This document shows, in pieces, positions 2,216 through 5,643 of a stretch of DNA of 64,000 nt. The position numbers and the translations under genes were made by a program. Under the pieces are notes generated by a model. It had not been told where the DNA came from. It searched no databases and worked only from the letters and a program-made list of their open reading frames with translations. Positions within the stretch are counted from its first letter, which is position 1. The number at the start of each line of letters is the position of its first letter. The DNA comes from Candidatus Saccharimonadota bacterium (GTDB lineage Bacteria; Patescibacteriota; Saccharimonadia; Saccharimonadales; Saccharimonadaceae): contig JAFRAS010000008.1 in NCBI GenBank assembly GCA_017405265.1, forward strand, positions 124,001 through 188,000, given 5' to 3'.

Positions 2216-3472
2216 TTATTTAAACAAGGATTTTCGGCGCAAAAGTGAATGATAAGTCACGGCGAAGCGGTGGGATTCTTCGTCGATGTGGGCGACGAGG
2301 CGGGCGAGGCGAGAGGATTTGTCGAGAGTAACCTGACCTTTTCCTGGGATTTCGAGAACGACGGCGGCGGAATGGGAGTGGTCGCCGGATTTATTGCGGC
2401 CGATGACGGGGATGTTCAGAGGTTTTAATAGAGGCTCGACGGCGTTCAGCTGATTTTTGCCACCGTCTAAAATGATGAGGTCGGGGTAATCCCACTCTTT
2501 GTGCTTCAAACGACGAGAAATGACTTCGGTCATGCTCTTCGCATCGTCGTTTTTGCTAGTTCTAATCTTAAATTTGCGGTATTCGGAGCGGTCGGAGGCG
2601 CCGTTCACGAAAACGACCATTGAGGCGACTGTGTCGGCGCCAGAGAGGTGGGAGATGTCGTAACCCTCGATGCGGCGGGGCGGTTTTTCCAGATTCAAGA
2701 GGGACTGGAGCTCCGAAAGAGCCTCGTCTTTTCCGAGGTCGAAAAATTCTTTGTCGGAGAAAACGATTTTTTTGCGCAATTCTTGGAGGCCCATGAGTTC
2801 GTTCCTATATTCGGCGGCGGATTCGAAATCTTCCTTTTTGGCCGCGTCTTTCATCTCTTTTTCGAGGTCGCTCATTAGTTTTTTTCGCTCGCCGTTTAAG
2901 TAGCGCTCGAGTTTTTTCAGGTTCGCTTTGTATTTTTTCGGAGTACTTTTTCCGATTTCGAGGCCGGGGGTGAGGCCGAGGTCGGTATTCAAAGATTTTT
3001 TGCCGTCATAGGGGCGGTCGTAAAAGGGGAAAATTTTGCGCAAGGTACGGAGGGATTTTTCGACGGGGCCTTTGGCGTAGAAGGGGCCGATGTAAGTGGC
3101 ACGGTCCCCGAGGGGCTGGCGGGTGAGGGAGACGTAGGGGACTTTTTCGGTGAAGTCAATGCGAACGTAGGACACGTTTTTGTCGTCGCGAAGCAAAATA
3201 TTCCATTTTGGCATGTATCTTTTGATCATTTCGGACTCCAAAAAGAGCGCGTCCATCTCGGTATCGACGACGACCCAGTCGGTGGTCGCGATTTCTTGCA
3301 CCAGGGCGGCGGTTTTCGGGTCTTTTTCGTCATTATGGAAATATTGGCGGACGCGGTTTTTTAAGACGGCGGCCTTGCCGACGTAGATAATTTCACCGTC
3401 TTTGTTTTTGTGAAAATAGACGCCTGGGGCCGAGGGGAGAGTTTTTAGTTTTTCTTTTAAAGCGGGATCCAT
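2216..3472 (-). CDS. uvrC: Excinuclease ABC subunit C, short form
   Basis: 418 residues against about 600 in most bacteria. UvrC makes both incisions in nucleotide excision repair with UvrA and UvrB (uvrB is at 59.8 kb). Visible domains: GIY-YIG nuclease (GVYF near 17-20, IIYVGKA near 28-34), UVR helix pair (about 203-235), and RNase H-like nuclease (GYDISHLSGAD near 270-280, LIILDGGKNQLNA near 332-344, ESHRFAVTYH near the end). The protein stops right after this domain, so the C-terminal helix-hairpin-helix DNA-binding domain is absent. The cysteine-rich region after the GIY-YIG domain is replaced by a cysteine-free stretch, and I see no cysteine in the protein. Confidence 0.93.
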   Translation of the reverse strand: MDPALKEKLKTLPSAPGVYFHKNKDGEIIYVGKAAVLKNRVRQYFHNDEKDPKTAALVQEIATTDWVVVDTEMDALFLESEMIKRYMPKWNILLRDDKNVSYVRIDFTEKVPYVSLTRQPLGDRATYIGPFYAKGPVEKSLRTLRKIFPFYDRPYDGKKSLNTDLGLTPGLEIGKSTPKKYKANLKKLERYLNGERKKLMSDLEKEMKDAAKKEDFESAAEYRNELMGLQELRKKIVFSDKEFFDLGKDEALSELQSLLNLEKPPRRIEGYDISHLSGADTVASMVVFVNGASDRSEYRKFKIRTSKNDDAKSMTEVISRRLKHKEWDYPDLIILDGGKNQLNAVEPLLKPLNIPVIGRNKSGDHSHSAAVVLEIPGKGQVTLDKSSRLARLVAHIDEESHRFAVTYHSLLRRKSLFK

Positions 3473-3528: not shown

Positions 3529-5643
3529 ATGGACGGAAGCGTGGAGGAACTAAACGGGGTGGGCGAAAAAACGGCAGAGGCGCTCTCGAAAGCCGGGATT
3601 TTTTCGGTGAGAGATTTTTTTTATTATTTGCCGCGGGATTATGAGAATTATACGAATGTGGTGCGGATTTCTGAGGTGCGACCGGGGAAGGTGACGATTA
3701 GAGGAAAGGTGCGGGACATTTCGACGCGGTGGACGAGGCGGCGAAATCTTTCGGTGACGGAGGCGACGATTTATGATGAGACGGAGGCAATTCGGGCTGT
3801 GTGGTTTAATCAGGCGTATCGGGCGAAGCAGATGAATGAGAAAGATGTTTATTTATTCTCGGGGGAGTATGAGATAAGTAATGGGAGATATCAGTTGATG
3901 AATCCAAGGGTGAGGGAGGCGGGCGGAGAGGCTGTTTCGCGGGGCGCGTCCGGGCGGCCCGTCGTCACGGGCGCCCGGCGCTATCGCTCGGCCGTGGCCT
4001 GCGCAATGCCCGCGGAACAGTCTCTCCGCCCGACTGCACTCACACCGATTTATCCGCAGAGGGGGAGGTTGAAGTCGGAGGATTTTCAACGGTTGTTTGA
4101 GAAGAATCGGGCGAGGTTCGGCGAGGTGCCGGATTTGTTGCCGGAGATATCAGAGGAGACGAGGGGCGGAGAGCGAGCTAGAGCGCTATTTTCTTTGCAT
4201 TTTCCAGAGAAAGAGGAGGAAGTGGCGCGGGGGCGCGGGGTGTTGGCGTATGAGGAGTTGTTTGAATTTATTTTAGCGGCGAGGTTGAATAAAAATGAGA
4301 TGACAAAACAGAGAGCGGAGGCGGTTCCCTTTTCGCTTTTGAGCGCGAAAGATTTTCTCTCCGGGCTTCCCTTTGAGCTCACGCCAGCGCAAAAAAAGGC
4401 GGCGTGGGAGATTATAAAAGATATGGGGCGGGAGACGCCGATGAATCGGCTTTTGCAAGGGGACGTGGGCTCCGGGAAAACGGTGGTGGCGGCGATGGCG
4501 ATTTTGCAGGCCGTCCGCGCCGGGTTTCAGGTTGCGTTCCTCGCGCCGACATCAGTGCTCGCCCAGCAGCATTACGCGACTCTAACAGAGGCCTTTCTCG
4601 GACACGCGTCTTCTATCAAAATCGCTTTGCTGACTGGGGCGGAGAAGAAGAAGGACGAGGTGAAGAGGAAAATTCGGGAGGGGGAGGTGGATGTTGTCGT
4701 GGGGACGCATGCGATTTTGACGGATGATACGACCTTTTTGAAACTTCGGCTCTGTATTATCGACGAGCAACACCGCTTTGGGGTGAATCAGAGGCAAAAA
4801 CTGCTCTTGAAATCGGGCGGGGTGGCGCCGCATCTACTGTCCATGACGGCGACGCCGATTCCGAGGTCGTTGCAACTCACACTTTTTGGCGACCTCGATG
4901 TGTCGGTGATTAACCAGATGCCGAAAGGCCGGCAGAAAGTCGAGACGAAAATCATCACGGGGATCGAAGTAGCGGAGGAACTGTATCCTAAAATAATCGA
5001 GACCGCACAGCGTGGGGAGCAGATTTATTATATCTGTCGGTTGATTGAGGACAAGAGCGAGAGTCTGTCGGTGAAAAAGGAGGTTTTAAGGCTCCAGGAG
5101 CGCTTTCCGAAGATGAAAATCGCGGCGCTTCACGGGAAAATGAAGCCGGAGGAGAAAGACCGAGTGCTCGCGGAGTTTTCGAGCGGGAAAATTGATATGT
5201 TGGTTTCGACGACAGTGGTCGAGGTGGGGGTGAATGTGCCGAATGCGACGATGATGGTGATTCGCGACGCGGAGCATTACGGGCTCGCGCAACTCCACCA
5301 GCTCAGAGGGCGGGTCGGGCGAGGCAAGAAAAAGTCGGCGTGTTTCCTCGTTTCGGAGGGCGAGAATAAGCCGAGTCGGCGACTTCTCGAGCTCACGCGC
5401 TCGAATGACGGGTTTCACCTTTCGGAGATAGACCTCGAGCTCAGAGGCCCCGGCGAGATTTATGGCGCGCTGCAACACGGCGCGGCGTCGTTTTCGATTG
5501 CGTCCATCACCGACACGAGGCTGATTTCGCGAGTACAAAAAGACGTGATGAAATTTTTGCCCGAATATCTTAAAAATCCAGAAAAATACGTCGAGCTAAA
5601 TCATATTATTAAAAAATATCAAACGCTGACAACATTGAATTAA
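3529..5643 (+). CDS. recG: ATP-dependent DNA helicase RecG
   Basis: 704 residues. RecG remodels stalled replication forks and branch-migrates Holliday junctions. An N-terminal helix-hairpin-helix-like start (LNGVGEKTAEALSKAGI) is followed by the OB-fold wedge domain (about 50-130). The helicase core has Walker A GDVGSGKT, the DExH-type box DEQHRFG, SMTATPIPRSL and the C-terminal RGRVGRG. Residues about 132-168 are an unusual Arg/Ala/Gly-rich insert between the wedge domain and the conserved LTPIYPQ. It is encoded by a 111-bp palindromic element of much higher GC than the rest of the gene. The reading frame stays intact through it. Confidence 0.94.
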   Translation: MDGSVEELNGVGEKTAEALSKAGIFSVRDFFYYLPRDYENYTNVVRISEVRPGKVTIRGKVRDISTRWTRRRNLSVTEATIYDETEAIRAVWFNQAYRAKQMNEKDVYLFSGEYEISNGRYQLMNPRVREAGGEAVSRGASGRPVVTGARRYRSAVACAMPAEQSLRPTALTPIYPQRGRLKSEDFQRLFEKNRARFGEVPDLLPEISEETRGGERARALFSLHFPEKEEEVARGRGVLAYEELFEFILAARLNKNEMTKQRAEAVPFSLLSAKDFLSGLPFELTPAQKKAAWEIIKDMGRETPMNRLLQGDVGSGKTVVAAMAILQAVRAGFQVAFLAPTSVLAQQHYATLTEAFLGHASSIKIALLTGAEKKKDEVKRKIREGEVDVVVGTHAILTDDTTFLKLRLCIIDEQHRFGVNQRQKLLLKSGGVAPHLLSMTATPIPRSLQLTLFGDLDVSVINQMPKGRQKVETKIITGIEVAEELYPKIIETAQRGEQIYYICRLIEDKSESLSVKKEVLRLQERFPKMKIAALHGKMKPEEKDRVLAEFSSGKIDMLVSTTVVEVGVNVPNATMMVIRDAEHYGLAQLHQLRGRVGRGKKKSACFLVSEGENKPSRRLLELTRSNDGFHLSEIDLELRGPGEIYGALQHGAASFSIASITDTRLISRVQKDVMKFLPEYLKNPEKYVELNHIIKKYQTLTTLN
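3921..4031. repeat. Palindromic GC-rich element inserted in frame in recG
   Basis: The terminal arms 3921-3944 and 4008-4031 are inverted repeats: GGGCGGAGAGGCTGTTTCGC matches the complement of the right arm, with about 22 of 24 positions paired. Inside are further stems (3950-3978 around CCGGGCG...CGCCCGG, and GGCC-GT-GGCC near 3990-3999). The element is 111 bases long, exactly 37 codons, and ends where conserved RecG sequence resumes. It resembles the Rickettsia palindromic elements that insert in coding genes. I saw no second copy in the window. Confidence 0.65.

Follow-up and report, generated by a model that had tools for sequence, protein, structure and literature searches.

The element in recG

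The window (the whole 64-kb stretch of DNA that was analysed) carries recG on the plus strand at 3529-5643, a gene of 704 codons whose frame runs open through a palindromic element. In its imperfect form the whole element occupies 3917-4035 (+, about 119 bp), and a 111-bp core with perfect ends lies at 3921-4031. A UvrC-like ORF on the minus strand (2216-3472, 418 codons) adjoins recG; typical UvrC is longer than 418 codons. The conserved core reads CGCGTC...CCCGTCG on the strand taken as plus for the element, and the covariance model described below matched the recG copy at G000:C4:127932-128024 (+). The long stem is formed by the left arm (3921-3943, +), which makes 23 uninterrupted pairs with the right arm (4009-4031, +), and it is capped by two hairpins, P2 (3946-3981, +), which holds the near-invariant CCCGTCGTCACGGG, and P3 (3985-4003, +; GGCCGTGGCC), giving a three-way junction. 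Among the close inverted repeats of the window the arms 3917-3943/4009-4035 were listed first (89% complementary); the inverted repeat extends over about 3917-4035, and weaker pairing reaches about 3910-4043. G+C was 0.74-0.77 across the element in 100-base windows and mostly 0.4-0.6 in the surroundings. Folding of the 111 bases gave −85.5 kcal/mol, compared with −58.3 (sd 4.0) for 200 dinucleotide shuffles, of which 0/200 were as stable (z −6.8). The original prediction of a 111-bp palindrome with internal stems and a G+C content far above that of the gene, inserted in frame in recG, was thus borne out.

In the RecG product (704 aa) the insert corresponds to residues ~132-168. After alignment with T. 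maritima RecG (1gm5), residues 5-138 were matched to chain residues 117-253 and residues 171-686 to 254-773; residues 139-170 were left unmatched, and the T. maritima match stops at 253 and restarts at 254 across the insert. In the AlphaFold model residues 133-168 had pLDDT <50 and were flanked on both sides by ordered domains. A disordered loop between the wedge and helicase domains is the predicted form of the insert, whose proposed placing at this junction is correct. The 37 residues were absent from 29/29 other RecG sequences of the genus, which supplies the empty site that the original prediction had proposed to look for.

A repeat family of one genus

The genome to which the window belongs (519 kb in 8 contigs, 86% complete) was found to hold 6 copies, namely the recG copy and five others, of which two are intergenic and three in frame (in gatA, in a Mur ligase gene and in a 613-codon gene). 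Further copies were recovered from related species. The repeat spans were mostly 116-121 bp. The two outcomes that would have spoken against a dispersed insert, the same 37 residues in distant RecG on unrelated DNA and the lack of any other copy, did not arise. Elsewhere in the same genome, short Thr/Pro/Glu-rich coding repeats were seen at L007:1400-1614 (G000:C3 near 58831); they are perhaps part of a surface protein.

A plain DNA search detected relatives in 30/60 genomes, every one from the same genus. With a covariance model built on 34 copies, the family was detected in 159/174 genomes of the genus, with at least 24 copies in some of them. In an order-wide sample it was present in 3/143 genera, the genus itself and two sister genera, all of one family, and it was not found in the other families of the order as sampled. 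Carriers with a named record belong to Candidatus Saccharibacteria, Ca. Nanosyncoccus alces among them, and ruminant guts are the source of most. Hits of the search pattern in Mycobacterium, Streptomyces and elsewhere failed the covariance model and were set aside as chance; among those listed outside Saccharibacteria, none of the 118 that were checked passed it. Viral carriage was rejected likewise (a single pattern match, which failed the model). Rfam gave no gathering-score match in the window and, across seven loci, one match with E<1, located outside the element. As the original prediction had supposed for CPR bacteria, no account of elements of this type in Saccharibacteria or any other CPR group was found in the open-access literature, and the family, ~120-base hairpins spread through a genus of tiny Saccharibacteria from the gut, is apparently undescribed.

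Maintenance of the fold on one strand

Compensatory changes were present in 13/19 pairs of the element core. The arms differ from site to site, yet within a copy they are complementary: the median arm score of 63 fresh copies was 67, with 0 failures, and it fell to 16 when the two arms came from different copies. In orthologous copies of intermediate age (11 ortholog comparisons), 30 stem pairs had changed on both sides and were still paired, and the single-sided changes of the same orthologs, read on the element strand, were 21 A.C vs 4 G.T. Isolated stem mismatches in the first set of copies were 92 A.C vs 27 G.T on the element strand, and the replicate test on the 63 fresh copies gave 40 A.C vs 3 G.T (p 3e-9), with 37 vs 44 outside the stem. 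An A.C mismatch on one strand is a G.T wobble on the other; the A.C excess on the element strand therefore means that it is the complement strand which tolerates wobbles. The bias was the same for genes running with or against the element and for intergenic copies, and no wobble bias was seen when mismatches were counted on the mRNA strand, for which reason selection of the fold in the mRNA was rejected. Because the bias ignores gene direction and vanishes on the mRNA strand, the comparisons show a constraint on one folded single strand of the element and not on the host message; the complement strand also had the lower predicted energy in 263/278 copies. Matched-loop hairpins, site-unique complementary arms and this one-strand constraint could not be seen by the original prediction.

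Between very close species (flanks ≥88%) compensation was not seen; single changes dominated (42 to 46, vs 2 paired) and the bias was slight (15 A.C, 12 G.T). This is as expected if the fold constraint becomes visible over longer times only, which fits slow compensation.

Two readings of the paired arms other than a folded DNA strand have to be weighed here. The complement strand might encode a functional three-way-junction RNA with stable tetraloops, on which selection would act. Wobbles are tolerated on that strand only, its predicted RNA energy was the lower in 263/278 copies, and its hairpin loops are of the NACG/GGCA type and co-vary (278 copies; GGCA with GGCG, NACG with NACG). Such an RNA is nonetheless unlikely: no shared promoter-capable sequence lies outside the core, the bias is equal where the host gene is transcribed in the opposite direction and between genes, and the element has no Rfam match. 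Since the bias is independent of transcription and no flanking sequence is shared that could serve as a promoter, folded DNA rather than RNA is favoured. Somewhat less probable still is that the copies are ordinary palindromic insertions with an unselected fold, whose arms owe their pairing to quasi-palindrome correction by template switching during replication. Arms paired at every site, whatever their sequence, would follow from this process, which has been proposed for the coding palindromes of hairworm mitochondria (PMC6649704); alone, it predicts neither the one-strand excess of A.C over G.T nor the conserved asymmetric bulges and internal loops of the stem.

Mobility, arms and cores

Mobility was analysed in two trios of close species (recG ~93.5% and ~96% identical). 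The majority of copies were shared between species at the same site. Three copies (G164 C1:95567, G175 C8:24845 and G175 C2:60122) were filled in one species and empty in another, with flanks 84-97% identical; these presence/absence cases between close species indicate that the insert family is a mobile element. No target-site duplication was seen in the three filled/empty pairs, where the flanks are 84-97% identical only, and the arm sequence had no match in the empty site. At several sites, close species bear different elements whose arms differ within matching surrounding sequence.

Copies at the same site with cores ≥98% identical had arms ~95% alike, whereas arms at different sites with equally similar cores had a likeness of 0.61 vs 0.57 for random pairs. 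In the genome of the window two copies at different sites (L004 and L005) share arms, and at one site (L065, L097, G099, G159) the arms are alike and the cores come from different subfamilies. Either cores swap between sites or arms are renewed on moving; the limits of the moving unit are not clear-cut, because near-identical cores carry unrelated arms. Copying of the arms from elsewhere in the genome was rejected after matches to arms proved no more frequent than those to flank controls (622 kb of G174, overlapping pieces counted). The unique arms, and one mnmA site, had prompted the idea that the core alone moves, the arms being formed when it inserts, by inverted duplication of the target. 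Such an origin would explain why identical cores have unrelated, self-complementary arms at different sites. It is improbable all the same, since the arms match nothing in the empty site of the three filled/empty pairs, different elements at one site differ in their arms though the flanks match, and two copies in the genome of the window have common arms.

Several loci were recorded in the course of these comparisons. In L298 (G164:C1:73050-73297), in a coding region, ~76 bases of other, hairpin-forming sequence lie exactly in the P2 loop (insertion point CCCCTGTCG^CCACAGGGG); nested elements of this kind may explain some longer arms. In L313 (G084:C1:202443-202533) a different hairpin, which resembles a terminator and has a core of unrelated sequence (CTCTCGGGAGCGCTCC...), stands where two sister species have the element; it may belong to a second family that uses these sites. 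At one gene site in two species (L090:7250-7338 and L160:4766-4880) the arms are related and the core orientation is opposite, as if the core had flipped between its arms. In one linker of a LepA-like gene the element is present in at least 8 species (L108, L168, L123, L012, L079, L095, L104, L042), in copies that differ in core, arms and orientation; this linker is either a hot spot or a very tolerant loop.

No enzyme that might mobilise the element was found. A RAYT/Y1 transposase was considered and rejected, as nearly all carriers are without one: PF01797 (the RAYT-type domain) was present in 8/174 genomes (several fragmentary) and absent from the genome of the window.

Reading frames through the element

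Reading frames were counted for 142 copies whose flanks were long enough, and a frame had to extend at least 40 codons beyond the element on each side. Of these copies, 108 lay inside ORFs open across the element, 59 with the ORF on the element strand and 49 with it on the opposite strand, and all six frames were used; among the fresh copies 53/63 were in open frames. No gene broken by the element was found, and copies with a stop inside and long frames on both sides were intergenic wherever examined. Translation of the elements, with loss of insertions that break the frame, would be expected to give this pattern. We infer that the insert is translated, because the frames stay open through it. 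Skipping of the element by the ribosome or its loss from the message (cf. mitochondrial byp elements), with an insert that never appears in protein, would suit a hairpin of such stability within a coding region, but is highly improbable, since it would make an open frame unnecessary where 108 copies keep one in six frames with no broken gene, and the mRNA strand lacks the fold bias.

Proposed mode of action

The element is probably a non-autonomous mobile palindrome of which one strand is kept foldable, which is moved in trans and which is translated in recG. The foldable strand is the complement of the core as written, which here is the template strand of recG; whatever the direction of the host gene, it retains the capacity to form the long stem and both capping hairpins. 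The folded single strand, most likely single-stranded DNA, would be recognised by a trans-acting enzyme for copying or moving, and the matched loops of both hairpins suggest one factor that binds both. In recG the ribosome would translate the element, and the 37 residues would be tolerated as a disordered surface loop at the wedge/helicase junction.

This account of a trans-mobilised, foldable palindrome is weakened by the failure to find its enzyme, by the lack of any visible target-site duplication in the three filled/empty pairs, and by copies at different sites whose cores are ≥98% alike and whose arms resemble each other as random pairs do. In a purely selfish element resident copies should decay, and compensatory change at vertically inherited copies, as observed here, is unexpected. 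A wider proposal is put forward tentatively, and we consider it possible rather than probable: that the active form is one folded strand, that resident copies, even in essential genes, are kept foldable by compensatory change that passes through wobble pairs, and that cores are exchanged or inverted between site-specific arms, the whole constituting an undescribed selfish or functional hairpin.

Comparison with known systems

Rickettsia is the best-known case of selfish DNA lying in frame in conserved genes; almost all species of one genus of Saccharibacteria, a distant group whose genomes are very small, show the same habit. Since copies can be gathered by the hundred, comparison can test how palindromes move without an enzyme of their own, how inserts of ~40 residues are tolerated and how the pairing of a hairpin is kept up. 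The replicated one-strand wobble asymmetry is a clean sign that one folded strand matters and shows where a mobilising factor should be sought, and strand-specific upkeep of the fold is the aspect likely to surprise specialists.

REPs are 20-40 bp long and mainly extragenic (PMC3733652). The present element resembles REP/BIME in being a short GC-rich palindrome with many copies and presumed mobilisation in trans, and differs from the REP/RAYT system in its length (~120 bp), in its mainly intragenic position and in the occurrence of a RAYT-type domain in 8/174 genomes where the family is in 159. Correia/NEMIS, ERIC and RUP are non-autonomous repeats of 100-200 bp with a strong stem, and some form in-frame gene fusions (PMC2229807); they have conserved terminal repeats and mostly target duplications. 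Unlike these MITE-like repeats, the Saccharibacteria element has outer arms unique to each copy, with no conserved terminal inverted repeat; no duplication was seen in the three filled/empty pairs. In hairworm (Nematomorpha) mitochondria, inverted repeats in coding genes remain complementary over time (PMC6649704), as do the coding inverted repeats described here; the hairworm arms, however, encode conserved parts of proteins and are not dispersed, whereas the Saccharibacteria element is an addition to the host sequence and its copies have a core in common.

The closest likeness in behaviour is to the Rickettsia palindromic elements (RPEs), as originally predicted, and it holds for length, stem, location between as well as inside genes, and in-frame fusion. 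RPEs measure ~105-146 bp, form a long stem-loop and lie both between genes and in frame in genes for conserved proteins (PMC2229807); the Saccharibacteria element, at ~120 bp, is likewise dispersed and in frame, in several frames, in a host with a small genome. RPE arms have been reported to lose identity over time (PMC6649704), whereas the Saccharibacteria arms stay paired (30 compensated pairs, 63/63 fresh copies) and show a strand bias. With RPEs compared by description, the element further differs from them in belonging to a different phylum and in combining a core with two matched hairpins with arms specific to each site.
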